Positions 1,873 to 33,525 of a stretch of 40,952 bases of DNA are shown in pieces; the first letter of the stretch is position 1, and each line of letters opens with the position of its first letter. Both the position numbers and the translations under genes were made by a program. A model generated the notes under the pieces. That model was not told the origin of the DNA. It saw nothing but the letters and a program-made list of their open reading frames with translations, and did not search any database. Origin of the DNA: Desulfobacterales bacterium (GTDB lineage: Bacteria; Desulfobacterota; Desulfobacteria; Desulfobacterales; UBA2156); the NCBI GenBank assembly GCA_027025555.1, contig JALVQN010000074.1:1-40952 (forward strand). Direction: 5' to 3'.

Positions 1873-1922
1873 GTCGCCTCCTTTTCGATCGGGGTTTTGG
1901 AGTTTCATCGCCTTTTACCCCT

Positions 1923-1950: not shown

Positions 1951-2035
1951 CCAACAGGGGGGTCTTCCGGATGTCTTTTGACAACATCTGCCTTTTTCGA
2001 TACCTCAAGGGCAGCCCCGCAAAGGAAGATACCCC

Positions 2036-2809
2036 ATGGAATGCATGACAAGGACGGCTTCACCCTCCAAAGTCACGCTCTTTATACCGTGCCTGGTGGA
2101 TGCGCTTTGGCCGGAAGTGGCCGAGGCCATGGTCCGTATTCTGCGGCACCTCGGGCTTTCTCTGGATTGCCCCGCCGATCAGACGTGCTGCGGTCAGGCG
2201 GCCTTCAACGGGGGGTATCGCCGGGAGGCGCGCCGCGCTGCAAGGCGTTTCATTGAAATTTTTGAAGGGGCCCAGTGCATTGTCTGCCCTTCGGGATCCT
2301 GTGTGCATATGGTGCGCCGGCACTACCCCGGCCTTTTCCGGGAGGCGCATCCCTGGCGGCGCCGGGCGGAAGCGGTGGCCTCCCGGACCTATGAACTCAC
2401 CGAATTTTTGGTGGATGTCCTGAACGTAAAAGACCTGGGAGCCCGTTTTTCAGGCAGGATCACCTACCATGATTCCTGTCATCTCCTTCGGGGCCTCGGT
2501 GTGAAGGAACAACCCCGCAGCCTTTTGAGACACGTGACGGGCGCCGACTTCGTGGAGATGGAAAACGCCGATTCCTGTTGCGGCTTCGGAGGCACCTTTT
2601 CCCTGAAGTATCCGGATATTTCCGCGGCCATGGTCAACGCCAAGGTCGATCACATCCTTTCCTCCGGAGCGCGGACGGTGGTCGCCTGTGACGCGGGATG
2701 CCTCATCAACATGGCCGGGGCCATGAGCCGCCGGGGGATATCCGTAAACGCCCTGCATATCGCCCAGGTCCTGGCCGGCGTTGATTTCCAGCGCACGTGT
2801 CCCTTTTAA
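2036..2809 (+). CDS. lutA: LutA-type lactate utilisation Fe-S protein
   Basis: This 257-residue protein has two CCG (cysteine-rich) domains, as in LutA/YkgE and heterodisulfide reductase subunit B. The first has C19 in IPCLVD and then a CCGQ near residue 57. The second has HDSCH near residue 150 and CCGFGG near 185, with a further cysteine in DAGC. These cysteines normally bind iron-sulfur clusters. With LutB and LutC it forms the cytoplasmic L-lactate oxidation complex that yields pyruvate. GGAAG lies 7 bases before the ATG at 2036; a second in-frame ATG at 2042 is possible. It is first in a three-gene operon. A TTGACA at 1978-1983 could be its -35 element, but no good -10 follows. The assignment is confident by motif order and by neighbours. 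Confidence 0.93.
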   Translation: MECMTRTASPSKVTLFIPCLVDALWPEVAEAMVRILRHLGLSLDCPADQTCCGQAAFNGGYRREARRAARRFIEIFEGAQCIVCPSGSCVHMVRRHYPGLFREAHPWRRRAEAVASRTYELTEFLVDVLNVKDLGARFSGRITYHDSCHLLRGLGVKEQPRSLLRHVTGADFVEMENADSCCGFGGTFSLKYPDISAAMVNAKVDHILSSGARTVVACDAGCLINMAGAMSRRGISVNALHIAQVLAGVDFQRTCPF

Positions 2810-2859
2810 CCGTATTGAGACACGGCGGTGGCGGGGCCTTGAGGCCCCACGGGAAGACC

Positions 2860-5402: not shown

Positions 5403-6497
5403 ATGAAGTCCCTATGCGCCGTTGTCATGCTCCTGGCCGCAACCGGCCTCACATGCCCTTCCAGGGGCTTTGGAGAAGCCGGCCCCGTGGCTCAAATCCC
5501 TTCCCTGGTTTCTGCCCTGAAAATCGAGGCGCCCCTGGATTTTTGCCAAGAACCGGTGCCCCTGGAAGAACAGGACATCCGGGAACGCTTTGAAAAGGAA
5601 CTCCTCCTTTCCCTGTGGAACCGCGCCCAGGTCCTTTTGTGGTTGAAGCGGTCACGGAGGTACCTTGCGGTCATCGAAAAGAGACTCCAGGAAGCCGGGC
5701 TCCCCCCGGACCTGAAATACGTGGCGGTGGCGGAAAGCGGACTTTTGGAACACGCCCGGTCCAGCAAGGGGGCCGTGGGCATGTGGCAATTCATGGCCGC
5801 AACCGGGAAAAAGTACGGCCTGATCATCAACCGGCAATTCGACCAACGGCGGGACTTTCTGGCTTCCACCGGGGCGGCCGTGCGGTATTTTCGCAACCTC
5901 TACGCCCTGTTCGGTTCATGGACCCTTTCCGCCGCGGCGTTCAACATGGGAGAAAAAGGGCTCAGCGCAGCCATCGAAGCGCAGGGGACCCACAACTACT
6001 ACGAACTCTACCTGCCCCGGCAAACCCAGCGCTTCTTGTTCCGCATCCTTTCAGCCAAGGTCATCCTCTCCGACCCCGAGACGTTCGGGTTTCACTTGGC
6101 CGATGAGGATTTTTATCCCCCCATCCTTTTCGATGAAATCCGGGTGGCCCTCAGGCAACCGGTCCCCCTTCGTCTCATCGCCACGGCGTCCGGAACCCAT
6201 TTCAAGCGGATCCGGGATCTCAATCCGGCTCTCCGCACCCCTTATCTCCCCGGGGGAAATCACGTGCTCCGCCTTCCCAGAGGGGCGGCCGAGGGGTTTC
6301 AAGCCCGGTTAAGGGCCGCTTGCAAGGCCCATCTTGCCGGAAAGGGCCGGGAATTGTATGTGGTCCGCAAAGGAGACAACCTTTCCGCCATCGCGGCCCG
6401 CTTCCGCGTCCCTCTTGCCGCCCTTGTCCTGTGGAACCGGCTGGATCCGCGAAAACCGATCCACCCGGGGCAGCACCTTTTCATCTATTCCAGATAG
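5403..6497 (+). CDS. MltD-like lytic murein transglycosylase with LysM domain
   Basis: The 364-residue secreted protein starts at the ATG at 5403. The frame extends back to a TTG at 5358, but the signal peptide (MKSLCAVVMLLAATGLTC) begins at 5403; its C18 might even be lipidated. The SLT domain lies at about residues 95-235. The catalytic glutamate is probably E111 in VAESGL, followed by G-A-V-G-M-W-Q-F-M and A-A-F-N-M-G, both hallmarks of family 1D lytic transglycosylases. One LysM repeat at about 317-362 (VVRKGDNLSAIAARF) binds peptidoglycan. Together they cleave glycan strands in the periplasm. MltD proteins often have two or more LysM repeats; this one has one. It converges with the anti-sigma gene. 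No strong ribosome site is visible before the ATG. Confidence 0.9.
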   Translation: MKSLCAVVMLLAATGLTCPSRGFGEAGPVAQIPSLVSALKIEAPLDFCQEPVPLEEQDIRERFEKELLLSLWNRAQVLLWLKRSRRYLAVIEKRLQEAGLPPDLKYVAVAESGLLEHARSSKGAVGMWQFMAATGKKYGLIINRQFDQRRDFLASTGAAVRYFRNLYALFGSWTLSAAAFNMGEKGLSAAIEAQGTHNYYELYLPRQTQRFLFRILSAKVILSDPETFGFHLADEDFYPPILFDEIRVALRQPVPLRLIATASGTHFKRIRDLNPALRTPYLPGGNHVLRLPRGAAEGFQARLRAACKAHLAGKGRELYVVRKGDNLSAIAARFRVPLAALVLWNRLDPRKPIHPGQHLFIYSR

Positions 6498-6538
6498 GCC
6501 GAATCTCCCATTTTGAAAAACAGGCCGGCTGAAACAGT

Positions 6539-7504
6539 TTAATCGGCGGTCACGATCCGAACCCGCACCCGGAGGAAATCCCGGCCTTTTGCAAGAGCCT
6601 TGTCCGGGAAAACACTCTCGGCATCCAGCGCCTTGAAGCGCTTTTCAAGCGCCTCAAGCGCCTCTGAAGGAATGCGACAGATCAGAATCTTTTCCTTTGT
6701 CTTTTCAAAAGAGTCGATCACCCTGCCGCCGACCCGAACGACATGGGCCGCCACCCGGGCTTCGAGGCCTTCTTTTTTGACCAAAGGGGCGGACCCGGCC
6801 CCGGCCTTTTTCTTCTCATCTGTTCGGCGATCCGTGAAACGGGCGCCTGCTGCCCCATCCGGCGGCCCTTTCCGCTTCAAGGCCCTCTGATCCGCGGCCG
6901 GGGACACGGCTTTCAGGGGCTTTGTTTTGTCTTCCAGGACCCTCCGGTAGGGGCCTTTTCCTCCGGTCGGCGCGCTCTTTTTCACGTAAAGCACGATCTC
7001 CAACGGCTCCGACATCCTTTTCGGGACGACTTCGGACCACGTTGATTCGGGCGCCGATCCGCCCGTGCGGGCGCCTTCCCGCCCTTTCGTGGATTTGGAA
7101 GCCAAGGTCCTTTCACGGACCTCTCTGACAACGCCCGTGGGCGCCATGACGGGCGGTTGGGTCTGTTTTGGATAAAATACGAAGAAAATCAGCACCCCCG
7201 CCGCCACGGCCGAGGCAAGCTTAAGGGGGACTTTGATCCCAAAGGGGATAAAGCGCCTCTGAAAAAGGCGTCTTAAAAGCCCTTCGGAGGCCATACGCCC
7301 GTGGAGCTGCTCCAAAAAGTCATCCGGCGGCTTCACGGCCTTCAGGGTGCCCAGGGCCTTGGAGACCGCCTGAAGGGAAGCCAGTTCTTCCCGGCACAAG
7401 GGGCATGCCTCCAGATGCTTTTTAATGCGGGAAGCGGCCTTGGCATCCACTGCGCCGTCCATGAATTCGGAAAGGCGCGCCCTTATTTCACGGCATGGGG
7501 TCAT
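6539..7504 (-). CDS. Anti-sigma factor with zinc-finger (ZAS/zf-HC2) domain and single TM helix
   Basis: This 321-residue partner of the ECF sigma overlaps its gene by four bases (ATGA at 7504-7501). The N-terminal anti-sigma domain carries H30-x3-C34-x2-C37 plus C4, the zinc-binding pattern of RsrA/ChrR-type ZAS domains. One membrane helix lies at about residues 92-111. A long low-complexity linker rich in K, E, G and P follows, at about 120-255. The last 60 residues look folded (V-x-x-V-G-G-R-V-I-D, then L-x-x-L-x-x-R-F-K) and would be periplasmic, a possible sensing domain. It should hold the sigma factor at the inner membrane until an envelope signal arrives. Release by proteolysis is possible but not shown here. 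The C-terminal domain has no name that I recognise. Confidence 0.88.
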   Translation of the reverse strand: MTPCREIRARLSEFMDGAVDAKAASRIKKHLEACPLCREELASLQAVSKALGTLKAVKPPDDFLEQLHGRMASEGLLRRLFQRRFIPFGIKVPLKLASAVAAGVLIFFVFYPKQTQPPVMAPTGVVREVRERTLASKSTKGREGARTGGSAPESTWSEVVPKRMSEPLEIVLYVKKSAPTGGKGPYRRVLEDKTKPLKAVSPAADQRALKRKGPPDGAAGARFTDRRTDEKKKAGAGSAPLVKKEGLEARVAAHVVRVGGRVIDSFEKTKEKILICRIPSEALEALEKRFKALDAESVFPDKALAKGRDFLRVRVRIVTAD

Positions 7505-8097
7505 AAAAGCATCCCCCTCAACTTTTCCTTTAGAATCTGCCGGGCCCGGGAAAGCCTCGATTTCACGGTCCCCAGGTTTTTCCCGATCACGTCGGCGATG
7601 GCCTCATAGGAAAGGCCCTCCATGTCCCTTAAAAGGACCACCGCCCGATGTTCCGGTGAAAGGGATAAAATCGCCTCTTGTATTTGAAGGGCCCGTTCTT
7701 TGGCTTCCACGGCCTCCAAGGGCAAAGGATTGCCGTCTTTGAGCTGTAAAGAGGCACCGCCTTCGCCCAGGGACGCTTTTCCGTTGGTGGACAGGGTGTT
7801 GCGCCGGAGCCGATAGGCCACCAAACGCATTCGATTCTTGCAGGCATTGACGGCGATGCGGTACAACCAGGTGGAAAAAGAGGCTTCGAAGCGGAAGCGT
7901 TTCAACCCGTTGAATGCTTTGATGAATGTTTCCTGGGCCAAATCATTCGCCTCGTCGGAATCTCCCAGCATCCGGAAACAAAGGTTGAAGATGCGTCCGT
8001 GGTGCCGTTTGACCAGGGCGTCGAAGGCGCCTCGATTCCCTTCCTGAAAGGCCCTTACCAGGGCCTCGTCCCGGCGGCTATCCCCGTCCCCGGCCAC
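7501..8097 (-). CDS. ECF-type RNA polymerase sigma factor (RpoE-like)
   Basis: Sigma-70 region 2 lies at about residues 20-90 (D-E-A-N-D-L-A-Q-E-T-F-I-K-A-F and F-S-T-W-L-Y-R-I-A-x-N). Region 4 lies at about 140-195 (L-S-Y-E-A-I-A-D-V-I-G, then G-T-V-K-S-R-L-S-R-A-R). There is no region 1 or 3, so this is an ECF (group 4) sigma. The frame opens at a GTG at 8112 (203 residues). I prefer the GTG at 8097 (198 residues): it has AAAGG 7 bases upstream, and the ECF promoter at 8145-8118 should start transcription near 8112, leaving the first GTG without a leader. It is co-transcribed with the anti-sigma gene and is probably autoregulated. Confidence 0.92.
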   Translation of the reverse strand: MAGDGDSRRDEALVRAFQEGNRGAFDALVKRHHGRIFNLCFRMLGDSDEANDLAQETFIKAFNGLKRFRFEASFSTWLYRIAVNACKNRMRLVAYRLRRNTLSTNGKASLGEGGASLQLKDGNPLPLEAVEAKERALQIQEAILSLSPEHRAVVLLRDMEGLSYEAIADVIGKNLGTVKSRLSRARQILKEKLRGMLL

Positions 8098-8117
8098 ACC
8101 CCGGCCTTTCACTCATA

Positions 8118-8145
8118 TCAGACACCCAAAAGGTGAAATAGTTCC
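8118..8145 (-). promoter_or_regulatory. ECF-sigma promoter of the sigma/anti-sigma operon
   Basis: On the minus strand GGAACT at 8145-8140 and TCTGA at 8122-8118 are separated by 17 bases, with GGTG directly before the -10. Together with the identical architecture at 1950-1923 this argues for autoregulation. Sigma genes of this class usually carry their own target promoter. Confidence 0.75.
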
Positions 8146-8299
8146 GGATATTGCCTTTTTTCCATTTTCCTGTTTTCAAATCCATGGCGCCGAAAGGTAG
8201 CAGGGAAAGAACGTGAAATCAATCGACCAGGGGGCCTGTCCCGGTCGCCGGTTCGACACGGAGCGCATCCCGGCTTCCGTTGAGCCTTTCAAAAACCTG

Positions 8300-8328
8300 T
8301 TGACAAGAAAGCCTCCTTTCGTTAAAAG
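8300..8328 (+). promoter_or_regulatory. Sigma-70 promoter of tRNA-Phe
   Basis: TTGACA at 8300-8305 is followed after 17 bases by TAAAAG at 8323-8328 (or TTAAAA after 16). The element sits 31 bases before the tRNA 5' end. Confidence 0.6.
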
Positions 8329-8358
8329 GGGTACCGATTTCAGCCTTTAAAACCCCAT

Positions 8359-8434
8359 GCCGAGGTAGCTCAGTCGGTAGAGCAGGGGACTGAAAATCCC
8401 CGTGTCGGCAGTTCGATTCTGTCCCTCGGCACCA
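8359..8434 (+). tRNA. tRNA-Phe (GAA)
   Basis: A 76-base cloverleaf with acceptor stem GCCGAGG/CCTCGGC, D-loop AGCTCAGTCGGTAGAGC, anticodon loop CTGAAAA (anticodon GAA), and T-arm with GTTCGATTC. The CCA end is encoded at 8432-8434. Confidence 0.97.
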
Positions 8435-8443
8435 GTGATGACA

Positions 8444-8476
8444 AGCACCGGCGAAGTGCCCGCGGGTGCTTTTTTT
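8444..8476 (+). terminator. Rho-independent terminator after tRNA-Phe
   Basis: AGCACC at 8444-8449 pairs with GGTGCT at 8465-8470. A small inner GGC/GCC stem is possible. A run of six T at 8471-8476 follows. Confidence 0.65.
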
Positions 8477-8635
8477 ATGTCATGAAATTAAGCGCATAAA
8501 GCCGTTGAGGGCTGCCCGACTTGTCCCCGAAGGGCACCCGTCAAAGGGCGGAGGGATCGGAAGGCCGCCTCCGGATCCCTTCCCGGTATCTCCGAAAGTC
8601 CTGAAAAAAGAGAAACGCCGGCATGCCTCAGGGGG

Positions 8636-9556
8636 TCAAGCCCTGGGGATCTCTGCGGTCAGGAGGCGATGGGAGACCAGGTTGACCAGGCCCCAGATGG
8701 CGTCCGCCGCCAGGTGCGCTTCGATGGTTTCATCGAAAAGGATGGACACCCTCGGTGAAAACTCTTCGTCGCCTTCCCACAGCAAGTAATAAAGGGGGAT
8801 TTTCGGAAAGGGATAAAGGGCATAGGCGGCATCTCCCAGTCGGAGGGCCTTGCCTCCCAAAGCCTGTGCCGACCGGCAAAATCCATCCAGGTCCGTGCCG
8901 AACCTTCTGAGGAGCGGCTCCACATTCAGGGCATGGGGCCCCTGGAAGAAGTGGGCGGTCTTGAGTTCCATGACCCCCACCATCCGGCCGCGCAAGGGCA
9001 CCTCCTTGACACCCAGAAGGTAAAGCAGGCATTCCAGCTCCAAAAGCGGATCCCGGACCCGGTCCCAGGACATGCCGGCTCTTTGAAAAACAAAGCGCTT
9101 TCCAAGATCGACACGGAGTTCATCTTTGAAAAAAGGGATCCGGATTCGATCCGGAGGCTCCCAAAAAGCCCCGGCGCGCCGGCACAGGGCCTTCCGGTCC
9201 ATGGCCGTCACCGCCTCCCAATGGGCCTGGGGCACCTGGATGGCCCCTCCCGCGGGGGACTTTGCCGGGGAGGCTTCGGCCCGTCGTCTTTCTTGCATTG
9301 AAAGGAATCCTCGGCTGAAGGGGTACGGACCCGAATGAAAATTGCCGCATGGAAAAGAAGGGCAGTCCCTCAGGCAATGGGCCACCCGGTTCATGCGGGC
9401 ACAAGCCAGAATCGGACAGGGGGCCCCCAGAAGCCGTGTCTGGGCGGCCTCCTTGAGTGCGGCTTCCCGGCTTGTCCCGGCGCCGCACAAAGAACACACC
9501 CCCAGGATGAAAAGCCGGCAGACCCTGCAGTCAATCCCGCACGCCGCCGGGGTCAT
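8636..9556 (-). CDS. Cysteine-rich N-terminus plus DUF3786 protein
   Basis: A 306-residue protein without signal peptide. Residues 1-75 are rich in cysteine: C6, C10 and C13, C21, C24, then a cluster with P-C-P-I-L-A-C, H-C-L-R-D-C and F-P-C-G. They look like a metal or Fe-S binding module of the DUF3795 kind. The rest, about 105-300, matches DUF3786 proteins of anaerobes, with E-L-K-T-A-H-F-F-Q-G-P, G-G-K-A-L-R-L-G-D-A-A and I-P-L-Y-Y-L-L-W-E-G-D-E-E-F-x-P. Those proteins are thought to bind a metal or corrinoid; the function is unproven. The start at 9556 has GGAGGGG upstream and overlaps the stop of the racemase-like gene (ATGA). It is last in the dnaX-recR operon. Confidence 0.8.
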   Translation of the reverse strand: MTPAACGIDCRVCRLFILGVCSLCGAGTSREAALKEAAQTRLLGAPCPILACARMNRVAHCLRDCPSFPCGNFHSGPYPFSRGFLSMQERRRAEASPAKSPAGGAIQVPQAHWEAVTAMDRKALCRRAGAFWEPPDRIRIPFFKDELRVDLGKRFVFQRAGMSWDRVRDPLLELECLLYLLGVKEVPLRGRMVGVMELKTAHFFQGPHALNVEPLLRRFGTDLDGFCRSAQALGGKALRLGDAAYALYPFPKIPLYYLLWEGDEEFSPRVSILFDETIEAHLAADAIWGLVNLVSHRLLTAEIPRA

Positions 9557-22550: not shown

Positions 22551-22594
22551 GTTCTTTTTTTAAGATGGAGCGTATTTCCGCAAAAGGGATTGAC

Positions 22595-23161
22595 ATGGTC
22601 AAGACAGAAACGGGCCTGACCCTTCTGGAGCTGGCGGTGACGGTGGCCATTGTCGCCATTGTCAGCGCCATCGCCATTCCGAACATGATCGGATGGGTTC
22701 CCAAACACCGCCTCCAAAACGCGGCCAACGACCTGCGGTCAGAACTCCAGGCCGTCCGGATGCGGGCCATCCGGGAGAACCGGGAGTTTGCCGTCTTTTT
22801 CAACCCCACCAACAACACGTACCAGGTGGTGGACTCGGGACCCAACCGGAGCTACGACGGCAGCACCCCCGGCAGCGACGACGTCACCCTAAAGACCGTG
22901 GTTTTGAATGCCTATCGCAGCGGCGTGACATACGGCAACGGAAACGCCACCACCAATGCCACATCCGGGGGAGGCGGCTTTCCCCCGGATTTCGTAAGCT
23001 ATACGGGCAACGCCGCCGTGTTTTTGCCCACGGGGCTCATCCAGGGCATGGGCTATGTCTATCTGACCAACAACCGGGGAGATGCCTTTGCCGTGGGCAC
23101 ACCCACGTTGGCGGGCACCGTGGTCCTTCGGATCTGGACCGGCGGAAACTGGAGCCAGTAA
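22595..23161 (+). CDS. GspH/FimT-type pseudopilin
   Basis: The 188-residue minor pilin starts at the ATG at 22595, which has AAAAGGGA 5 bases upstream. An upstream ATG at 22565 would fall only about 4 bases after the sigma-54 start site and adds 10 unneeded residues. The class III signal is K-T-E-T-G/L-T-L-L-E-L-A-V-T: a G before the cut, E at +5, but leucine instead of phenylalanine at +1. A hydrophobic helix follows to about residue 28. The GspH/FimT pattern R-L-Q-N-A-A-N-D-L-R-S-E-L-Q-A-V-R-M-R-A-I-R-E-N comes next. The C-terminal half is Gly/Asn-rich. It should be a priming/tip pseudopilin in the inner membrane and pilus tip. Confidence 0.9.
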   Translation: MVKTETGLTLLELAVTVAIVAIVSAIAIPNMIGWVPKHRLQNAANDLRSELQAVRMRAIRENREFAVFFNPTNNTYQVVDSGPNRSYDGSTPGSDDVTLKTVVLNAYRSGVTYGNGNATTNATSGGGGFPPDFVSYTGNAAVFLPTGLIQGMGYVYLTNNRGDAFAVGTPTLAGTVVLRIWTGGNWSQ

Positions 23162-23187
23162 AGCGAATCAACAGGATTGTATTTCCC

Positions 23188-23952
23188 ATGAACCAAAAAG
23201 GCTTTACCTTGATCGAGCTTATGGTGAGCCTGGCCGTGGCCGGCATCGTCATGAGCGCCGTATATGTGATGTACCAGTCGCAGCTCCAGACCCAGGCCAC
23301 CCAGCTGGCCGCCACAGAAATGCACCAGCATGCCCGGGCCGCCCTTTTCCTCATGGAGCGGGAGATCCGTTCCGCCGGCACCGATCCCACGGGACACGCC
23401 GATGCCGGGTTTGTCCTCACCAATGCCAACGAAATCCGTTTCACCCGGGATATCACCGGAGGAGAATCGGACGGCACCGACAACGACAAGGACGGCAAGA
23501 CCGACGAAGCGGACGAATGGTATGACGCGGACACAACCGATGCCAACGAAGACATCCGCTACCGCCTTTGGGCGGACGGCGGCGTGAATTGCGATGCGAA
23601 CAACGACGGGATCGCCGATTCGTTTCCCTGTTCTTTATGCAGAGACACCGGCGCCGGGCTTCAGCGGGTGGCCGACAACATCGAAGCGCTCCGGCTTTTT
23701 TACCTGGACGCCAACGGGAATGAGACCACCACCGCTTCCAGCATTCGATCCGTGGTGGTGGTCCTGGTGGCCCGGTCCGACAATCCGGTGCTCATGAGGG
23801 ATCAAACCGACACCACCACTTATCAGGTCACCATCCGGGATGCTTCTGGAAACCCCACGGCAAGGACCATTCTGCCGGCCCCCAACGACACGGTGCGTCG
23901 CATCATGCTCTCCACCGAAATCCGGGTCCGGAACACCGGGTTGACCTCCTAG
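23188..23952 (+). CDS. pilW: PilW-type minor pilin
   Basis: A 254-residue protein from the ATG at 23188, the point where the prepilin leader begins (M-N-Q-K-G/F-T-L-I-E-L-M-V-S-L). The frame is open upstream to 22693, but that part only shadows the fimT-like gene. The PilW pattern H-Q-H-A-R-A-A-L-F-L-M-E-R-E-I-R-S-A-G-T-D-P-T-G is clear at about 43-66. Two calcium-loop-like stretches follow (D-N-D-K-D-G-K-T-D-E-A-D near 97 and D-A-N-N-D-G-I-A-D near 140). The protein is part of the minor pilin complex that primes pilus assembly and carries PilY1. It sits 26 bases after the previous gene. Confidence 0.92.
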   Translation: MNQKGFTLIELMVSLAVAGIVMSAVYVMYQSQLQTQATQLAATEMHQHARAALFLMEREIRSAGTDPTGHADAGFVLTNANEIRFTRDITGGESDGTDNDKDGKTDEADEWYDADTTDANEDIRYRLWADGGVNCDANNDGIADSFPCSLCRDTGAGLQRVADNIEALRLFYLDANGNETTTASSIRSVVVVLVARSDNPVLMRDQTDTTTYQVTIRDASGNPTARTILPAPNDTVRRIMLSTEIRVRNTGLTS

Positions 23953-23979
23953 TTAAGGAAAACGCCTGAGGAAGCGACC

Positions 23980-24411
23980 ATGGACATGAATCGAAACAAC
24001 CCCGCGGCAAAGCCCCTTTCCCCGGAAGACGGCTTTTCCCTTCTGGAGATCCTCATGGCCGTTGCCGTCTTTGCCATCGGCGTCCTGGGAATCGCCGGGC
24101 TTCAGGTCCAGGCCACCAACAAGACCACCCATTCCCGGCTTTTCACCGAAGCCTATACCGTGGCCTGCGACCAGATCGAGGCCATCTATTTGATGCCCTA
24201 CACCGATGCCAACATCACCGCCGGAACCCATACAGTGGGCAACACGGGCCCGGGGAACCGGTACAACCTTTCCTACACGGTGACGGACAACCTCGGCCCC
24301 ACGCCGCCGGCAAACACGAAAACCATCACCGTCACCGTTTCCATCAACGCGAGCAGCCTTTTGCCGGTGACCATCACCTTTACCAAGGCCCAAATTCAGG
24401 ATATAAGCTGA
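23980..24411 (+). CDS. pilV: PilV-type pilus modification protein / minor pilin
   Basis: A 143-residue protein. The leader D-G/F-S-L-L-E-I-L-M-A-V-A-V-F-A-I-G-V-L-G-I-A-G-L-Q is the PilV signature (L-G-I-A-G-L-Q after the prepilin helix). Y-T-V-A-C-D-Q-I-E-A-I follows, the usual second motif with varied residues. A long leader of 17 residues precedes the cut. GAGGAAG lies about 5 bases before the ATG at 23980. Its stop overlaps the next start (TGATG). It acts with PilW and PilX as part of the pilus tip complex. Confidence 0.9.
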   Translation: MDMNRNNPAAKPLSPEDGFSLLEILMAVAVFAIGVLGIAGLQVQATNKTTHSRLFTEAYTVACDQIEAIYLMPYTDANITAGTHTVGNTGPGNRYNLSYTVTDNLGPTPPANTKTITVTVSINASSLLPVTITFTKAQIQDIS

Positions 24412-24938
24412 TGGCGTTTTTTGCTTTGAAAAAAATGTCCAGACCCGTCACCCATCAAGACGGATCGGTGCTCTTTTTCACCCTCATGATCCTGGTGATC
24501 ATGGCGGCGGCCGGGTTGACCATGATCTCCAACACGGTCCTGGAGTCCAAGATCGTGCGCAACGCTTCATCCCGGACACTGAACTTCTACGCCGCCGAGG
24601 CGGCGGCCATGGAGGCCGCCCAGCGCCTTGAAAACGAAACCAACGTCACCCGGCTCAATACCCACAATGCCGTGTGGCTCAACCCCAACGGTCCCAGCGA
24701 TCCGCCCCTGGCCGATTTCAACCAGGCCTGGACCCTTTCCGGGTCCGGACAAAACGCCGTGTTCAACGCCGCCACCAACACGGCCTACACCACCGTCCGG
24801 GTGGGCGTGGCCAAGAGCGCGTCCCTGGGCTTGGAGAATCCGGATCTCCTCTGGGAATACAGCGTGCTGGGACGGTATTACGATTCCAACAACACGCCCA
24901 TTGCCATGATTGAAGTCGGGTTTAAAAAGCGATACTGA
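24411..24938 (+). CDS. pilX: PilX-type pilus assembly protein
   Basis: A 175-residue protein with the PilX N-terminal domain: D-G-S-V-L-F-F-T-L-M-I-L-V-I-M at about residues 17-31. It then has M-I-S-N-T-V-L-E-S-K-I-V-R-N and F-Y-A-A-E-A-A-A-M-E-A-A, the family Y-x-A-E-A-A-x-x-x-A pattern. Unlike classic pilins it has no glutamate at +5. Its start overlaps the pilV stop (TGATG), so the genes are coupled. It lies directly before the pilY1-type gene, as in Pseudomonas (pilV-pilW-pilX-pilY1). Confidence 0.88.
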   Translation: MAFFALKKMSRPVTHQDGSVLFFTLMILVIMAAAGLTMISNTVLESKIVRNASSRTLNFYAAEAAAMEAAQRLENETNVTRLNTHNAVWLNPNGPSDPPLADFNQAWTLSGSGQNAVFNAATNTAYTTVRVGVAKSASLGLENPDLLWEYSVLGRYYDSNNTPIAMIEVGFKKRY

Positions 24939-24953
24939 TTAAAGGAGCCTCCC

Positions 24954-27900
24954 ATGAAAGACCACGTCCCCCTTTTCAGGCAACCGAGACGGTGTCTCCT
25001 GACGGCCGCCGCCGGCCTTATCCTTTTTTTCAGCGCCGCATCCTTGGTATCAGGCATCGAGGTCAGCCAGATCCCCATGTCCCAACGGCTCAACCCCGCC
25101 CCGCCCAACGCCATGTTCGTTCTGGACAATTCCGGCTCCATGGACTGGGAGTTCATGACCACGGAAGACAACGGAACGTTTGCCGGCGGGGGGACGGTTT
25201 ACGAGTACCTTTTCGACAATCCGGGGGACAACAACTTTCCGCCGGGCGATATCTACGGAACGATCCTTTCCAACGACGACCGTGGCCTGTGGAAAGCCCA
25301 GTGGTCCGGGTACAACAAGATCTTCTACAATCCCCACAGCCAGTACCTGCCCTGGCCCCGAAAATCGGACGTGGACATCAGCGACCTGGAGCACGTGCGC
25401 TCCAATCCCAACAACGCCACCCCCACCTTCGATCTGACGGCCCAGTACCATTCCATCATCGGTGAAAGGATCATGGTGGACAACACGGACGCCGGATTTT
25501 CCTATTCCGACGCCTCCCACTGGGGAACGACCACCTATCCCAACCAGCAAGGCTCCAACTACCACTTCTCTGAGGATCAGCCGGACAACACGGTGTGGGC
25601 CAAGTGGACTCCGACTCTGCCGGGGCCCGGGACTTACGAAGTCTTTGTCTGGTTCAGGAACGTGGGTTTGCGGGAGCACACCGTCACCTATGACGTGAAA
25701 CACGCGGGGGTCATCACCACGGTCTCCACCATCGGCAACATCACCGGCGGCACCCCCATCAGCCACCACCCCGACGAGGGCCAGGGGGACCAGTGGATTT
25801 CGCTTGGTACTTTCAGGTTCAACGGCCACGGCGAGGAATACGTGAAACTCAACGCCAATCACACCAGAGGCTCGTGCTGCCGCTACGGTGCCGACGCCGC
25901 CATGTTCCAACCCGCCACCATCAGCATCACCCGCGCCCACTACTACACCATCGACGATGCGGACGGCGACGGGGAACAGGATCCCGGAGAGGCCGTTTAC
26001 CTGGTCAACTTCGTCCAGGAAGGCGGCAACTGGGTGCGAAAGTACTACCGGTTCGATGACACCGACGGCGACGACCGGGTGGAAGCCGGGGAGCTGACCG
26101 AGGTGACGGGAAGCGACATCCCGGATGCCGTCAAGCCGGCCGTCTACAAAGAAGACGGCATCTTTGTCCGGTACAAAACCGACACGGAAGACCTCCAGAA
26201 TTTCGCCAACTGGTACTCCTTTTACCGGCGCAGGGAGCTGGCCGCCAAGGCGGCCGTGGCCACCTCCATCACCCGGATCTCCCGGGTCAATGTGGGCTTT
26301 TACACCATCAATCCCGATTACGGCGCCCGGACCGGCGTCCTTCCCGTGAAGGTGGAGACCAACGCCATCATCGTGGACGACAAGGACAGCAACTTCACCC
26401 GCAGCAGCATCTGGTACTGGCAGGAATCCGACTCGCCCAATGCGTGGGAAAACAGCGCATTATACACCACGGAACAAGGGGAATGGGCCAAGTGGACGCC
26501 CACCATCCCTTCCACCGGCACCTATAAAGTCTATACCTGGTACAACTGCTTCAACAACCGGGACACGAAGGCCAAATACACCATCCACCATGACGGCGGC
26601 GATTCCGTGGTCGAGGTGAACCAGCGCCAGGAATCCGGCAATCCCTGCGGGGAGTGGGTCTATTTGGGAGAATACACCTTCAACGAAGGCACGGAAGGCT
26701 ACGTGAAGGTGGAGCGCACGGGAAGTTCCACGGGAAGCAGCACCTTGGCCGACGCCGTGAAGTTCGAGCCCACCAGCGGCCTGGTGGAGTCTGATGAAAC
26801 CGACACCCTTTTGGACATGCTCTATGCCATCGACTCCAACGGCGGTACTCCCCTGCGCGACGCCCTCCATGAGGTGGGGGAATACTACGACCAGACCGAC
26901 GGCGACCATCCCGATTTGGGGGCCTCTCCCTATGAAAGCGAGGAAAACGGCGGGCTCTGCCAGATGGCCTTTGCCATCGCCATGACCGACGGATACTGGA
27001 ACGGCTATTCCCCGGGCGTGGGCAACGCGGACGGCACCGGCGGGTGCCCGGGGGGCGAAATCTGTTCCGGGGTGGCGCCCTGGAGCGACAGCTATTCGGA
27101 CACCCTGGCCGATGTGGCCATGAAATTTTACAAGAAGGACCTTTCCACGAGCCTGCCCGACGAGGTGCCGGAAGACCAGTGCGACAAGGCCAACTGGCAG
27201 CACATGGTCACCTACACGGTCTCTTTCGGGGTGACCGGAAACATCGATCCCGAGGAGCACGGCTCCTGCCCGGACCCCGGGACCGCAATCGACTGGCCGG
27301 ACCCGGGGGATGCCGACGACCCCGACAAGATCGACGACCTCTATCACGCGGCCGTCAACGGCAGAGGCGTCTTTTTCAGCGCCCAGGATCCCGAGGAACT
27401 GGTGGACGCCCTGGTCTCCATCCTTCAAAGCATCCAGGCCAAATCCGCGTCCGGGGCCTCGGTGACCGCAAACGGTGAAAACCTCACCGGTACAACCCGG
27501 GTTTACCAGGCCCGCTTCGACACCTCGGACTGGTCCGGAGACCTTATGGCTTTTGCCATCGATCCGGAAACCGGAACCGTCTGCACCGATGCCCTCCTTT
27601 CCGGTCAGATGCCCGAGTTCTGCGCCAAGGTATCCAGGCCGATGTGGAGCGCCCAGGAAAAACTCCACGACCTTATTTCCCAATCCGGGGGGGCCGGCCT
27701 GCGCACCGTTGTCACGTACAACCCGGGTACCGGCGACGGCATTCCCTTCCGGTATCCGACGACCAGCGGCTACGGCTCCGACGGGCTGACCCGGGACCAG
27801 CTTCTGGCCCTGGATCCTTCCTGGTCCGAGAGCAACGCCACCCGGGCCCAAAACCTCGTCGCCTACCTCCGGGGGGAAGCGGTTACGGGCTTCAGGAACA

Positions 27901-29609
27901 GGACAAAGGCCCTGGCCGACCTGATCCATTCCGCGCCGCTCCTATATTTACATGAAGATAAAGATAAAACGTACGGGACCCTTTTCGTGGGGAGCAACGG
28001 GGGCATGCTGCATGCCTTCAACATGGACGACGGCACGGAACGGTTCGCCTATGTGCCCAATCTCGTGTTCGACAACCTGAAATACCTGGCGGAAAACGAC
28101 TACAGCCACCTCTTTTTCGTGGACAATTCCCCGGCCCTCCGGGTGATCCCGTATTCAAGCAAAACGAATATGATCAATCGCGTCCTTCTGGTCTGCGGCC
28201 TGGGGGCCGGGGGGAAGGGGTATTTCGCCCTGGACGTGAAAGATGCCCACACCATCACGTCGGGGGCTTCCAGCGAAAGCACGGTCAGGAAATGGGTCAT
28301 GTGGGAATACCCGAATTCGGCCACCCCTTCCACAGATGCCGATGATCTGGGGTTGAGTTTCAGCCGGGCTTTCATCGTGAAGAAAAACAAGATCGACAAC
28401 CTGGATCCCAATGAATCTGAACAGTGGGTGGTGATTTTCGGCAACGGCTACAACAGCACCAATGGGCATGCCGTGCTTTTTGTCCTGGATGCCCTCACCG
28501 GCAAGCTGCTGCGCAAAATCGACACCGGTGAAGGCGGCAACAACGGGCTCTCCACCCCCACCCTCATCGATCCCAACAACGACGGCAGGGTCGATTACGT
28601 CTATGCCGGGGATCTGAAGGGAAATTTATGGAAATTCGACCTGACATCGGGGGATGCGGCCAACTGGTCCGTGGCTTTCAATGACGGCACAAACCCGGTG
28701 CCTCTCTTCCGCGCCGGGACCTCCCAGCCCATCACCACCAAGCCCGAGGTCATGTATCATTGCAAAAAGCACGGCTATATTGTGGTCTTCGGCACCGGAA
28801 AGTTTATCGGGGCTCCGGACCGGGAGACTGAAAATTACCCGGTCCAGTCCATCTACGGCATTTGGGACTTTGCAGACGACGCCGAAGACAGCGGATTCAT
28901 CGGGCCGATTGCAAACCGTACAACGGGAAAACTCTCCTATCCCTCGGGTTTTTTCCTGGCAAAGCAGGAGGAGATCTATTTCGGCACCCATTTTGGACAC
29001 GCGCTCCGGGTCTTGAGCGACAATCCGGCCAATTACTATACGAAGACGGATCCCGAAGCCGGGCAAGCGCCCGACCCCGCCCTTCACCCGGAATACGCCA
29101 ACGATGGTGTGGACAACAACGGGGACGGCAACATCGATGAAGGGGATGAAGGGTTGACCCACCTGGGCTGGTTCTTCGATTTCCCCAACACGGAGGCCGA
29201 TTTCAAGGGAGAACGGGTCATCGTGGATCCCCTGATCCGGGAAGGAAGGGCCATTGTCATCTCCTTTTCCCCGCGGGATTCGGCGTGCTCGGGCAGCGGG
29301 TGGTCCCTGGTCCATGAAATGGACGCCTGCAGCGGCGGCCGTCTTTCTGAGGCGGTATTCGACATTAACGGCGACCACAAGATCACCGAGGAAGATATGA
29401 TCACGATCACCATCAACGGGGTCCGAGTGAAAGTTCCACCCACCGGCATCGCCTATCTCGGCCTGCTGCAGCCCCCGAAGATCCTGCGCCTGAAAACCCC
29501 CGGCCAACCTCCGCGGGAAGTCAAGCTCTTCAACAACGAAACCGCCACCATGACGCCCCTTTTCGAGAAGGCGGAAAAACGGGGAATCTACTACTGGCTG
29601 GAAAAATAA
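24954..29609 (+). CDS. pilY1: PilY1-type pilus tip protein with VWA split by two golvesin-like domains
   Basis: A 1551-residue secreted protein. The signal peptide covers about residues 1-34. The VWA metal site starts with D58-N-S-G-S62-M. The rest of the VWA, with G-G-T-P-L-R-D-A-L and A-M-T-D-G-Y-W, appears only after residue 615. Between them lie two modules like the golvesin C-terminal domain, at about 171-320 (I-M-V-D-N-T-D-A-G-F-S) and 470-605 (I-I-V-D-D-K-D-S-N-F-T). Each has W-A-K-W-T-P, T-Y-x-V-x-x-W and D-A-x-x-F-x-P. Calcium-loop motifs occur near 337 and 365. From about 830 the PilY1 beta-propeller follows, with its own calcium loop D-P-N-N-D-G-R-V-D near 1205. A C-terminal tail holds further D-x-N-x-D loops. 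It should serve in surface adhesion and pilus retraction control. GGAG precedes the ATG at 24954. Confidence 0.95.
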   Translation: MKDHVPLFRQPRRCLLTAAAGLILFFSAASLVSGIEVSQIPMSQRLNPAPPNAMFVLDNSGSMDWEFMTTEDNGTFAGGGTVYEYLFDNPGDNNFPPGDIYGTILSNDDRGLWKAQWSGYNKIFYNPHSQYLPWPRKSDVDISDLEHVRSNPNNATPTFDLTAQYHSIIGERIMVDNTDAGFSYSDASHWGTTTYPNQQGSNYHFSEDQPDNTVWAKWTPTLPGPGTYEVFVWFRNVGLREHTVTYDVKHAGVITTVSTIGNITGGTPISHHPDEGQGDQWISLGTFRFNGHGEEYVKLNANHTRGSCCRYGADAAMFQPATISITRAHYYTIDDADGDGEQDPGEAVYLVNFVQEGGNWVRKYYRFDDTDGDDRVEAGELTEVTGSDIPDAVKPAVYKEDGIFVRYKTDTEDLQNFANWYSFYRRRELAAKAAVATSITRISRVNVGFYTINPDYGARTGVLPVKVETNAIIVDDKDSNFTRSSIWYWQESDSPNAWENSALYTTEQGEWAKWTPTIPSTGTYKVYTWYNCFNNRDTKAKYTIHHDGGDSVVEVNQRQESGNPCGEWVYLGEYTFNEGTEGYVKVERTGSSTGSSTLADAVKFEPTSGLVESDETDTLLDMLYAIDSNGGTPLRDALHEVGEYYDQTDGDHPDLGASPYESEENGGLCQMAFAIAMTDGYWNGYSPGVGNADGTGGCPGGEICSGVAPWSDSYSDTLADVAMKFYKKDLSTSLPDEVPEDQCDKANWQHMVTYTVSFGVTGNIDPEEHGSCPDPGTAIDWPDPGDADDPDKIDDLYHAAVNGRGVFFSAQDPEELVDALVSILQSIQAKSASGASVTANGENLTGTTRVYQARFDTSDWSGDLMAFAIDPETGTVCTDALLSGQMPEFCAKVSRPMWSAQEKLHDLISQSGGAGLRTVVTYNPGTGDGIPFRYPTTSGYGSDGLTRDQLLALDPSWSESNATRAQNLVAYLRGEAVTGFRNRTKALADLIHSAPLLYLHEDKDKTYGTLFVGSNGGMLHAFNMDDGTERFAYVPNLVFDNLKYLAENDYSHLFFVDNSPALRVIPYSSKTNMINRVLLVCGLGAGGKGYFALDVKDAHTITSGASSESTVRKWVMWEYPNSATPSTDADDLGLSFSRAFIVKKNKIDNLDPNESEQWVVIFGNGYNSTNGHAVLFVLDALTGKLLRKIDTGEGGNNGLSTPTLIDPNNDGRVDYVYAGDLKGNLWKFDLTSGDAANWSVAFNDGTNPVPLFRAGTSQPITTKPEVMYHCKKHGYIVVFGTGKFIGAPDRETENYPVQSIYGIWDFADDAEDSGFIGPIANRTTGKLSYPSGFFLAKQEEIYFGTHFGHALRVLSDNPANYYTKTDPEAGQAPDPALHPEYANDGVDNNGDGNIDEGDEGLTHLGWFFDFPNTEADFKGERVIVDPLIREGRAIVISFSPRDSACSGSGWSLVHEMDACSGGRLSEAVFDINGDHKITEEDMITITINGVRVKVPPTGIAYLGLLQPPKILRLKTPGQPPREVKLFNNETATMTPLFEKAEKRGIYYWLEK

Positions 29610-29659
29610 TCCTTTTTCACATTCCCAGGCAGAACGTAAAGCGCATGAAAGGAAAACCC

Positions 29660-30013
29660 ATGGACAACCCAAAGCAAACGGCGCGCATGGCCGCCTTCCT
29701 TTTGCCCCTCGTCCTTTTCGGGATGCTGTTTTTCTTCCGGGCGGACGTTGCCCGGGCAGGGGAAAAGCCGCTTTATCCCGGATATCCCCTCACTTTCGAC
29801 GGGCGGGCCCACTGGGACGGCATGGCGGACGGGTACATAATCCTCAGCGACAGCCGGTTCAAACTGGCCCCCGGCGCCACCTTCCATTTTCCGGACGGAT
29901 CCTCTTCGGGACCCTCGGGATTTGCCCGGGGGGATTGGGTGGGATTTTTGCTGAACCGCGAAGGGCAAATCGAGTCCCTGTGGCTGATCCGGAAAAAGGC
30001 CAAGAAAAAATAG
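29660..30013 (+). CDS. Small secreted protein of the pilY1 operon, unknown function
   Basis: A 117-residue protein. The ATG at 29660 has AAAGGA 6 bases upstream and begins the signal peptide (basic start, then M-A-A-F-L-L-P-L-V-L-F-G-M-L-F-F-F). The ATG at 29645 is less likely. The mature part is a single small domain: G-Y-I-I-L-S-D-S-R-F-K-L-A-P-G-A-T-F-H-F, then G-F-A-R-G-D-W-V-G-F-L-L-N. A basic tail ends it. The pattern of short strands suggests an OB-like or small beta-barrel. By position it may play the part that small PilY2-type proteins play in other pilus operons, but I see no clear similarity. It lies 50 bases after pilY1. Confidence 0.75.
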   Translation: MDNPKQTARMAAFLLPLVLFGMLFFFRADVARAGEKPLYPGYPLTFDGRAHWDGMADGYIILSDSRFKLAPGATFHFPDGSSSGPSGFARGDWVGFLLNREGQIESLWLIRKKAKKK

Positions 30014-30036
30014 ACGGTTTTTCAAGGAAACGCCAT

Positions 30037-30549
30037 ATGCGGGTATTTCTCCTGATCTTTTTCACCCTTGCAGGGGTGGCGGCCGGACCCGCCGTTCCGG
30101 AAGCCGCCGTGTATCGCTTTGTGGACGAGACGGGCACCGTGCATTTCACCGACGACATTCAACAGGTCCCCGAAGCGCAACGTCCCAAAGCCCTCCATGA
30201 AAAAAAGGATGAAGACCGGGAACGGGAAACAGACAGGGGACAAAAAGTAAAAGGGCCTCTGGATCCCCCCGGGCCTTCGGATAAAAAGAAGGCTTCCCTG
30301 AAAGACGAAGCAGAGGCCCTTTTTCTCGAAAAAGAAGCCCTGGAGGAAGAGTTCAGGCAGATCATCGAAGAACGGGACCGCCTCCAACGGGAAAGAAGCA
30401 CACCCGGCGGACCCGCCGAGGTCAAGGCCTACAACGACGCGGTCTTTGCCCTGAAACGGCGCATCGCCGAATACCAAAAACGATGCGACGCCTATGAAGC
30501 CCGGCGAAAGGCCTTGCACGAGAAGATGGATGCCCTGACAACGCCTTGA
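30037..30549 (+). CDS. DUF4124 domain protein with coiled coil
   Basis: A 170-residue secreted protein from the ATG at 30037, which has AAGGA about 8 bases upstream. The longer frame from 29935 adds residues antagonistic to a signal peptide. Residues 1-24 are the signal peptide (M-R-V-F-L-L-I-F-F-T-L-A-G-V-A-A-G). DUF4124 follows at about 25-50 (V-Y-R-F-V-D-E-T-G-T-V-H-F-T-D-D). A charged linker and a coiled-coil-prone stretch of about 90 residues rich in E, K and R end it. DUF4124 proteins are periplasmic and poorly understood. The stop codon lies in the loop of a predicted terminator. Confidence 0.85.
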   Translation: MRVFLLIFFTLAGVAAGPAVPEAAVYRFVDETGTVHFTDDIQQVPEAQRPKALHEKKDEDRERETDRGQKVKGPLDPPGPSDKKKASLKDEAEALFLEKEALEEEFRQIIEERDRLQRERSTPGGPAEVKAYNDAVFALKRRIAEYQKRCDAYEARRKALHEKMDALTTP

Positions 30550-31695: not shown

Positions 31696-33525
31696 TTACC
31701 CCTGCTCCCAGGTCACCCGGAGCACCTCCTGGTAGGTGGTCACACCGTCCAGCATCTTCCGCACGGCATTTTCCCGCATGGTCACCATCCCTTCCCGCTT
31801 GGCCAGATCCGAAATGGCGCTGACATCCGCATGATCAACGATGTGCCTCTTGATGCTCTCGGTGACGGGCAAGACCTCAAAGATCCCGGTCCGGCCCAGA
31901 AATCCCGTCCCCCGGCACTTGAGGCAGCCCCTGCCCCGTTTTAAAGAGATACGCCCTTTTTTCCCGGGATCGAGTCCCATCTCCAGCAATTCCGAGGCTT
32001 TTATTTCAAAATCTTCCTGGCAATGGACGCAGATCTTCCGCACCAGTCGCTGCCCCAGGATCCCGATGAGCGTGGATTGAATGAGAAAAGGGGGAACCCC
32101 CAAGTCCAACAGCCTCGTAATGGCCGAGGCCGCATCATTGGTATGAAGGGTGGAAAGGACCAGGTGCCCGGTGAGGGCCGCCTGGATCGCGTTTTCCGCG
32201 GTTTCGAGATCCCGCATCTCGCCGATCATGATGATGTCCGGATCCTGACGCAGAATGTTGCGCAAAATGCTTGAAAACGTGATGCCGGCCAAGGGCTGGA
32301 CCGCGATCTGGTTGAAAGACTCATGGACCATCTCGATGGGGTCCTCCACCGTGGTGACATTGACCTCCGGGGAAGAGATGGCGCGCAACGTGGAATAAAG
32401 AGTGGTCGATTTCCCGCTTCCCGTGGGACCGCAAACCAGGATGATGCCGTGGGGCATGTTGATGAAGTGGTTGTACCGGATGAAGTCCGTAGCCGAAAAG
32501 CCCAGGGTCTCCAGATCCTGGAACAGGATGTCCGGATCCATGATCCGCATGACCACTTTCTCCCCGAACGCCACCGGCACCGTGGAGACCCGGATCTCCA
32601 CCTCCACATCCCCCTTGTCCATCTTGATCCGTCCGTCCTGGGGACGGCGCTTTTCCGCCATGTCCAGCCGGGAAAGCGTCTTGATGCGGCTGATGATGGC
32701 CGAATGAACGGTCTTGGGCAGGTCGTAGACATTGTGCAGGATGCCGTCGATGCGCATGCGCACCCGGCTGACATTGCGCTTGGGTTCGATGTGAATATCG
32801 GAGGCCCGCTGTTCAAAAGCATAAACGAACAAATAATTGACGGCGTTGACGATGTGCTGATCCGTGGAGGGAAGCTCGTCCGAGGCCCGCAATCTCACGT
32901 ACTGCTCCAGATTGCCCAAATCCACCGCAGGGCCGGCGAACTGGATTTCCGCCTCTGATATGGAGCGTTTAAATCCGAAAAATTCCTGGATGAGCTTGAC
33001 GATATCGCGTTTGGGACTCACCACGGGCCGCACCTTCATGAGGCTGGCCCGGGCGATGTCGTCCAGTGCCTCCACGTTGAAGGGATTGGGAGTGGCCACG
33101 GTCAAGACGCCGCCTTTGACGCCCACGGGAAGAACCAGATGCCGTTTGGCGAAGGTGCGCGGGATGATGGTGGTCACCAGGTTAAGGTCCAGTTTCAGGG
33201 GATCGATCTTCTTATAGGGAAAGCGCCAGGCCCGGGCCAGGGTCTCGTAGACGGCGTCCTCATCCAGAATCAGCTTTGCATTGTCGGCCCTTGTCAGCTT
33301 CATCCCCACAATCAGGTCTATGGCATAAAAGGGGGCCTGTTCTTGGGCCGACCCTTCGGATGGCGGCATCTTGGAATCCGCCGGACCTTTTCGCTTCTTT
33401 CGGAAGACCGCGTCCCGGGTCAGGATCTGCTTTGCCTGAGACTTGGAGATCAGGCCCTTTTTATACAGGATCGCACATACGGATCGAAGGGAAAAGAGGC
33501 TTTTATCGCCGTTTGGAGGAAGCAT
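31696..33525 (-). CDS. GspE/PulE/PilB family assembly ATPase
   Basis: A 609-residue protein. An N-terminal GspE-type region (about 60-210) has P-N-P-F-N-V-E-A-L-D-D-I. The N2 domain carries R-A-S-D-I-H-I-E-P near 235. The ATPase has Walker A G366-P-T-G-S-G-K-S373, the Asp box V-E-D-P-I-E, Walker B with I-I-M-I-G-E-M-R-D, and the His box T-L-H-T-N-D-A. A zinc-binding C-x2-C...C-x2-C pair (C-V-H-C and C-L-K-C) lies near 503-540. These mark an extension ATPase for type IV pili or type II secretion; next to the minor pilin genes PilB is likelier. The first 60 residues (K-K-G-L-I-S-K-S-Q-A-K-Q-I-L) look like a DNA-binding-like helix region. It converges with the LysM gene. Confidence 0.93.
   Translation of the reverse strand: MLPPNGDKSLFSLRSVCAILYKKGLISKSQAKQILTRDAVFRKKRKGPADSKMPPSEGSAQEQAPFYAIDLIVGMKLTRADNAKLILDEDAVYETLARAWRFPYKKIDPLKLDLNLVTTIIPRTFAKRHLVLPVGVKGGVLTVATPNPFNVEALDDIARASLMKVRPVVSPKRDIVKLIQEFFGFKRSISEAEIQFAGPAVDLGNLEQYVRLRASDELPSTDQHIVNAVNYLFVYAFEQRASDIHIEPKRNVSRVRMRIDGILHNVYDLPKTVHSAIISRIKTLSRLDMAEKRRPQDGRIKMDKGDVEVEIRVSTVPVAFGEKVVMRIMDPDILFQDLETLGFSATDFIRYNHFINMPHGIILVCGPTGSGKSTTLYSTLRAISSPEVNVTTVEDPIEMVHESFNQIAVQPLAGITFSSILRNILRQDPDIIMIGEMRDLETAENAIQAALTGHLVLSTLHTNDAASAITRLLDLGVPPFLIQSTLIGILGQRLVRKICVHCQEDFEIKASELLEMGLDPGKKGRISLKRGRGCLKCRGTGFLGRTGIFEVLPVTESIKRHIVDHADVSAISDLAKREGMVTMRENAVRKMLDGVTTYQEVLRVTWEQG

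Follow-up and report, generated by a model that had tools for sequence, protein, structure and literature searches.

The window, as we term the whole 40,952-nucleotide stretch of DNA analysed, comes from an uncultured relative of sulfate reducers and encodes a protein of the type found at the tip of type IV pili. Within this protein, a PilY1 of 1551 amino acids, the VWA domain is split into three pieces by two golvesin modules that are inserted at two separate loops. This architecture is well supported with respect to the gene, its operon, the identity of the modules, the two sites and the assembly of the VWA domain from both halves. We consider it probable, at roughly two chances in three, that the protein is a tip adhesin in which the MIDAS-bearing VWA domain acts as a chassis for plug-in modules that most likely bind polysaccharide. 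The features are located as follows.

22565–23161, forward strand: minor pilin of FimU/GspH type (GspH E = 4e-7)
23380–23952, forward strand: likely PilW-type minor pilin, a weak call from a PilW match under the cut-off (E = 0.44) and operon position
23980–24411, forward strand: minor pilin PilV (TIGR02523 E = 4.6e-10, under its curated cut-off)
24411–24938, forward strand: minor pilin PilX (PilX_N E = 2.6e-6)
24954–29609, forward strand: pilY1 gene, an open reading frame of 1551 amino acids with a signal peptide, a VWA domain with two inserted golvesin modules and a PilY1 beta-propeller
25059–25460, forward strand: predicted VWA piece 1, residues 36–169, with strand b1 (residues 52–57 in the AlphaFold2 model), MIDAS D-N-S-G-S and the YNPxxxYxPWP element; conserved in golvesin-free homologues
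25125–25139, forward strand: MIDAS DxSxS motif D-N-S-G-S, residues 58–62; DxSxS is conserved in the 42-member alignment
25461–25919, forward strand: golvesin module 1 at VWA site 1, residues about 170–322, between b1 and helix a1 (PF25275 at 25470–25901; CBM35-like fold at model positions 136–285)
25920–26357, forward strand: predicted VWA piece 2, residues 323–468, with the hairpin extension, helix NFANWYSFYRRRELAAKAA, b2 VNVGFYTIN (445–451) and b3 VLPVKVE (459–465); kept in golvesin-free homologues
25953–25991, forward strand: Ca-loop-like motif DDADGDGEQDPGE, residues 334–346, in the native stretch; a similar motif occurs in the golvesin-free homologue L056
26055–26093, forward strand: Ca-loop-like motif DDTDGDDRVEAGE, residues 368–380, in the native VWA stretch
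26358–26780, forward strand: golvesin module 2 at VWA site 2, residues 469–609, between b3 and helix a2 (PF25275 at 26367–26768; CBM35/CBM6 fold)
26781–27446, forward strand: predicted VWA piece 3, residues 610–831, with the MIDAS T (GGTPL) and D (MTDG) loops, b4–b6 and the closing helices, from the model and motifs
27963–28931, forward strand: PilY1 beta-propeller domain (PF05567), residues 1004–1326
28569–28595, forward strand: motif DPNNDGRVD of the PilY1 protein, residues 1206–1214
29935–30549, forward strand: DUF4124 protein 3′ of pilY1 (PF13511 E = 4.8e-7)
31696–33525, reverse strand: type IV pilus extension ATPase of PilB/TfpB type (TfpB model E = 2.8e-195, under the equivalog cut-off)

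The initial annotation had called the protein a PilY1, and this is borne out by both the propeller and the minor-pilin operon. The C-terminal propeller matches PF05567 in Pfam with E = 5.3e-47 and 161 bits against a cut-off of 28.1. It contains the sequence DPNNDGRVD, which we take to resemble the Ca-binding loop of PilY1 propellers. Two further Ca-loop-like motifs, NNGDGNIDEGDEG at 29115–29153 and DINGDHKITEED at 29361–29396, lie past the propeller. The gene order is four minor pilins, pilY1, the DUF4124 protein, a LysM protein and, on the opposite strand, the PilB/TfpB-type ATPase. The neighbours by which a PilY1 is recognised, FimU, PilV, PilW and PilX, all appear to be represented, the PilW call being weak; with that member included on its weak match, the minor-pilin operon around pilY1 is complete.

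The PilB-type ATPase is 81–82% identical in two congeners. Elsewhere in the genome a profile search identified two PilT-family ATPases and PilQ, all above their cut-offs, which together with the PilB-type ATPase make a retractile type IVa pilus likely. The VWA domain of PilY1 is located at the ultimate tip of the pilus in Myxococcus, and the tip position of PilY1 and the need for it in pilus assembly come from other species only (PMC7541494). By analogy, the PilY1 of this organism would also be located at the tip.

In the congener G001 the genes for HflC, GroEL, LysM and PilB are syntenic with those of the window, and the minor-pilin/pilY1 operon of ~8 kb is missing between GroEL and LysM (window 22565–30549 compared with L121, on contig C11 of G001). 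A search for PF05567 in the congeners G001 and G002 gave no match, and both retain pilB and pilT. Since two close congeners with no detectable pilY1 keep pilB and pilT, the trait is non-essential within the genus. A recent foreign origin of the operon was considered and rejected. Although a congener lacks the operon at the same place, the GC and GC3 of most of its genes are those of the rest of the window, so that there is no compositional sign of recent arrival.

Golvesin_C (PF25275) matches the 1551-amino acid protein in two stretches, with a whole-protein E of 7.5e-41 in Pfam. In a search of the genome the stretch at 26367–26768 gave 99.5 bits (E = 2.9e-28) and that at 25470–25901 gave 58.8 bits (E = 9.9e-16), both exceeding the curated cut-off of 31.6 bits. 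The two matches are not due to chance, and the two golvesin modules previously annotated, for which a lack of any golvesin match was the stated counter-case, were both recovered. A single further golvesin gene was found in this genome (L126, positions 273–3032, on contig C156 of G000), an open frame of 920 amino acids combining peptidase M23, golvesin and PA14.

Structure comparison of the window model places Paenibacillus xanthan lyase (6F2P) across both modules together with Z = 21.7, in an alignment whose rmsd reflects two rigid modules. Alignments to single modules gave Z = 11–13 and rmsd 2.6–3.3 with ~120–128 residues aligned; the xanthan-binding MiXBM (7EHG) was found at Z = 12.7, and structures of CBM35s with glucuronic acid at Z = 11–12. 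In the model both modules adopt a beta-sandwich fold of CBM35/CBM6/CBM36 type. Module 2 is also related in sequence to residues 907–1036 of 6F2P (phmmer E = 1e-11), and retains the invariant residues of the golvesin family; its conserved positions include W514, R536, Q557 and W568. Some near-invariant residues are absent from module 1 in the golvesin alignment, with G261 where 96% have Gln and Q199 where 93% are aromatic. Module 1 may therefore be degenerate, or it may have a different ligand, a changed specificity or no binding left. The loop at the Gln and aromatic positions is longer in module 1 (window 25461–25919).

The initial annotation also described a split metal site (MIDAS) in the VWA domain and named, as a second counter-case, a VWA domain predicted to fold without both halves. 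The motifs lie where they had been placed, with D-N-S-G-S followed by GGTPL at residues 630–634 (26841–26855, including T632) and MTDG at 677–680 (26982–26993, including D679). All of the MIDAS, DxSxS ... T ... D, is thus present, and it is conserved across homologues. An AlphaFold2 model of residues 36–870, made from a 42-sequence alignment (protein numbering is that of the model plus 35), has pLDDT 84.9 and pTM 0.77. Its elements run in the order b1 (52–57), golvesin 1, helices (410–441), b2 (445–451), b3 (459–465), golvesin 2, helices (616–624 and 634–646), b4 (672–678), b5 (751–758), helix (789–802), b6 (804–810) and helix (813–831). Structure prediction had been suggested as a check, and in the model the strands and helices of the VWA domain come in order from all three pieces, across both inserts. 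As b1 and the DxSxS loop lie within piece 1, the predicted VWA fold requires both halves, contrary to the counter-case.

Profile searches, the other suggested check, found golvesin twice but no Pfam VWA family in the window protein, a result to be expected of a domain broken into three pieces. VWA_2 matches 19 of 42 homologues (best E = 3.3e-7), the window protein not being one of them. No match was obtained when a profile of the whole VWA-golvesin alignment was searched against PDB sequences. The matches listed for a structure search with the window model were filled by CBMs, with no separate VWA match among them, and the homologue L069, which has one (permuted) golvesin, was taken for the VWA structure search in place of the window model. 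In the L069 model (pLDDT 88.4, pTM 0.83), ~175–200 residues drawn from model positions 11–609 align to solved VWA domains with Z = 16–18.6 and rmsd 2–3.5. These include Mfa5 (6TNJ, Z = 18.6), S. sanguinis PilB (Z = 16.8), SpaC (Z = 16.8) and integrin I domains. The region aligns to solved VWA domains, those of pilus tips included, solely when both halves are used. The window protein is thus predicted to contain a VWA domain with a Rossmann-like fold, an assignment based on MIDAS and fold and not on a database match. From the VWA topology, site 1 would lie on the MIDAS face and site 2 toward the opposite end.

One element of the initial annotation has to be revised. It described a single insert holding both modules, and instead there are two inserts at two loops (residues about 170–320 and 469–609). 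In the alignment with relatives, module 1 is preceded by the YNPxxxYxPWP / 'YHSI' stretch and followed by 'ITRAHYY', and module 2 lies between 'VLPVKVE' and 'TDTLLDMLYAIDSNGGTPL'. The ~148 residues that separate the modules comprise a beta-hairpin extension, the helix NFANWYSFYRRRELAAKAA and the strand VNVGFYTIN. Golvesin-free homologues share the hairpin extension, a NFANWYSYYRRR helix and a VxVGxxTI strand, indicating that this stretch is native VWA and not insert. A single insert is ruled out, since the intervening stretch belongs to the host domain and there are homologues in which either site 1 or site 2 is empty. The Ca-loop-like motifs reported between the modules do exist there, but as both fall in the native stretch, and the first (334–346) is also found in some golvesin-free homologues (DADGDG... 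in L056), they are not parts of a golvesin insert.

The spacing between the MIDAS DxS and the MTD motif was compared in 83 distinct VWA-PilY1 proteins. Where golvesin is absent it has a median of 315 (range 265–480, n = 42). It is 451 where only site 1 is filled (n = 19) and 654 where both sites are filled (n = 13), the window protein having 619. Two golvesins at site 1 give 586 (n = 4), three give 751 (n = 1) and two with one further golvesin give 749 (n = 1); three of the 83 proteins are filled at site 2 only. Over the 83 homologues, site 1 contains zero, one, two or three golvesins, or a PPC domain instead. Between L041 and L051, with 71.5% identity across 1353 aligned positions, the difference is exactly the site-1 module, and so on alignment they are a natural filled and empty pair for this site. 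Inserts in other PilY1 proteins, for which the initial annotation proposed to look, recur among the Desulfobacterota relatives found, and the gammaproteobacterial homologues in the sample are all golvesin-free. The named loci are the best 80 of 453, so this sample is biased toward similarity; in a less biased set, golvesin was present in a PilY1 VWA domain in 11 of 58 genomes of the same order. The culturable relative Desulfobotulus alkaliphilus (L052) shares the architecture of the window protein.

Division of the golvesin profile into an N part, up to the 'LGxYxF' strand, and a C part, the last hairpin with 'ADAVKF', shows that by far the most modules have the order N to C. The C part precedes the N part in the site-1 modules of L022, L069, L081, L090 and L030 as well as in two modules of L075, the C-part matches in L090 and L075 being weak (1e-3, 2e-3 and 0.4). 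From this order we conclude that the six proteins carry a circularly permuted golvesin. In a tree built on the part from the MIDAS to the propeller, all six belong to a single supported ten-member clade, and the model of L069 (1630–3549) is confident in the permuted region. In L022 the permuted golvesin of site 1 is accompanied by one of normal order at site 2. Site 1 of L049 (open reading frame 5860–9420, residues ~180–471) has the order N1-[N2-C2]-C1, apparently one golvesin nested inside another, and a third golvesin occupies site 2. Tandem golvesins at the same site occur in L073, L079, L074, L077 and L112, and permutation may have come about by tandem duplication followed by loss of the outer parts.

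In L057, L058, L059, L084 and L078, site 1 is occupied by an insert of comparable size that gave no match in a search for golvesin. That of L078 is a PPC domain (PF04151, E = 6.1e-7, above the cut-off), with weaker PPC matches at site 1 of L058 (0.011) and L059 (0.46). L072 and L083 are similar to L078 in spacing and probably have a non-golvesin insert at site 1 as well. Upstream of the VWA domain there are extra repeats in some proteins, four Calx-beta domains in L078 and six MopE Cu-binding motifs in L076.

A recent duplication of one golvesin inside the window gene was rejected, since modules 1 and 2 are 30% identical to each other and share no long stretch of nearly identical DNA. The module tree groups site-1 modules with those of site 1, and site-2 modules with those of site 2, from other proteins. 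This requires six label changes against 18 in shuffles, with a few rows carrying a wrong site label, the sites later being set by spacing. Such clustering by site indicates old, separate lineages. In the tree of the MIDAS-to-propeller part the window protein falls in a supported clade (97) of mostly two-site proteins. The presence of a site-1 module requires about 13 changes over this tree, which argues for repeated gain and loss. These comparisons indicate that modules have been gained, lost, duplicated and exchanged repeatedly in the relatives.

We propose that the PilY1 propeller would dock on the minor-pilin complex, with the VWA domain projecting at the extreme tip. The N and C termini of golvesin could be joined to a VWA loop, and modules are inserted in frame at two loops that would be permissive. 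There they would most likely bind polysaccharide, whether EPS of the cell itself or of its neighbours, or acidic polysaccharide bound to particles. On retraction driven by PilT, load would pass through the modules directly into the VWA domain, because they are built into its loops. In Pseudomonas, force-induced changes in the PilY1 VWA domain are required for surface signalling (PMC8806160).

The nature of the ligand and the coupling to force are what we infer from related systems. A CBM fold by itself is not proof of sugar binding. Glycan binding would nevertheless be the likeliest function of the golvesin modules given three lines of evidence together, the CBM35/CBM6 fold, the sequence relation to 6F2P and the binding by IPR033803 lectins. 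The extra terminal module of the Paenibacillus xanthan lyase is described as an additional, unclassified xanthan-binding module, and the enzyme (PXL) lacking its xanthan-binding modules has lower activity and a higher Km (PMC10881899). Two IPR033803 lectins bound glycans on an array, and the family is said to include golvesin and a xanthan lyase (PMC9166713). By analogy, the term carbohydrate-binding adhesin used in the initial annotation is plausible for this PilY1.

The modules might take hold of EPS made by the cell itself, in which case retraction would haul on its own matrix rather than on foreign surfaces. There is a precedent in the N-terminal domains (DUF4114) of PilY1.1 and PilY1.2 in Myxococcus, which are proposed to bind EPS (PMC13190605), and the relation to xanthan suggests bacterial EPS as the class of ligand (PMC10881899). 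We regard this as possible though doubtful, and it is in any case a subtype of the tip adhesin. Less likely again, the golvesins could serve chiefly as structural spacers with no ligand, making the tip VWA domain larger or stiffer, shielding it or tuning its unfolding force. The placing of the two modules at opposite poles by topology would suit such a role, as would the divergence of module 1 at conserved positions, and the VWA domains of RrgA and GBS104 have inserted arms that lengthen the protein (PMC7893114). However, the same site accepts unrelated domains (golvesin, PPC) and tandem copies, which fits variation of ligand better than a fixed spacer length. Moreover, module 2 retains the invariant residues of its family, and the fold neighbours are carbohydrate-binding modules.

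It is improbable that the CBM fold has been reused for protein or mineral ligands in place of glycans. The hosts do inhabit sediments and biofilms, and beta-sandwich CBM-like folds can also bind protein. The targets of Cbeg4/5 are glycoprotein glycans (PMC9166713). Yet the closest sequence relative of solved structure is a module at the C terminus of a polysaccharide lyase. Finally, although the assembly is fragmented (226 contigs), an artefact, whether a chimera made in assembly or a pseudogene with remnants lying between the two halves of the VWA domain, is already refuted by the recurrence of the two-site architecture, seen in at least 12 independent genomes. The gene is also a single open frame of 1551 amino acids, and GC and GC3 stay even across the gene and its operon.

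The tip adhesin extends to a broader proposal, which we advance tentatively and at somewhat less than even odds. The PilY1 VWA domain of the Desulfobacterota might be a general-purpose chassis, with two loops that take interchangeable modules (golvesin that is single, tandem, nested or permuted, and PPC). The specificity of the tip would then evolve by cassette-like exchange, and engagement of ligand would be coupled directly to a force sensor. The large natural series bears on how type IV pilus tips gain or change their ligand specificity, and suggests a route for such change. It makes testable whether the inserted module sets the grip of the pilus, and whether load on a module within the VWA domain acts on the mechanosensor. 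A natural experiment on domain insertion is offered by the golvesins that are permuted or nested.

Comparison with known systems places the architecture among tip proteins. PilY1 of P. aeruginosa and PilY1.3 of Myxococcus, like the window protein, have a VWA domain with MIDAS DxSxS...T...D, a C-terminal PF05567 propeller and minor-pilin neighbours, but in the window protein the VWA domain is split by two golvesins at two loops. A survey from 2026 identified no further conserved N-terminal domain of PilY1 besides vWFA and DUF4114 (PMC13190605). Myxococcus PilY1.1 and PilY1.2 share with the window protein the idea of an N-terminal binding domain, suggested to bind EPS, but there it is DUF4114, and the survey reports no VWA domain (PMC13190605). 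The sortase-pilus tip adhesins RrgA and GBS104 have a tip VWA domain with MIDAS and two insertions, whose arms are proposed to form a binding cradle (PMC7893114). Their inserts, however, are hairpin or loop arms and not independently folding CBM-type domains, and the pilus is of another type. In S. sanguinis, PilB (VWA; Z = 16.8 to the L069 model) and PilC (a glycan-binding lectin; PMC9934059) belong to a type IV pilus tip, but these are modules grafted on pilins in separate proteins and not a CBM nested inside a VWA domain. Both window modules match the golvesin C-terminal / xanthan lyase module (PF25275; 6F2P 907–1036; IPR033803) by Pfam and fold, module 2 also by sequence to 6F2P. Those modules are appended to an enzyme or lectin, whereas in the window protein they are inserted in a pilus-tip VWA domain. 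The literature searched contained neither the combination of golvesin with PilY1 nor CBM-type domains inside a PilY1 VWA domain. Tip VWA domains with inserts and lectin-bearing pilins are known; what appears to be new is the nesting of complete CBM-type domains within the VWA domain of PilY1.
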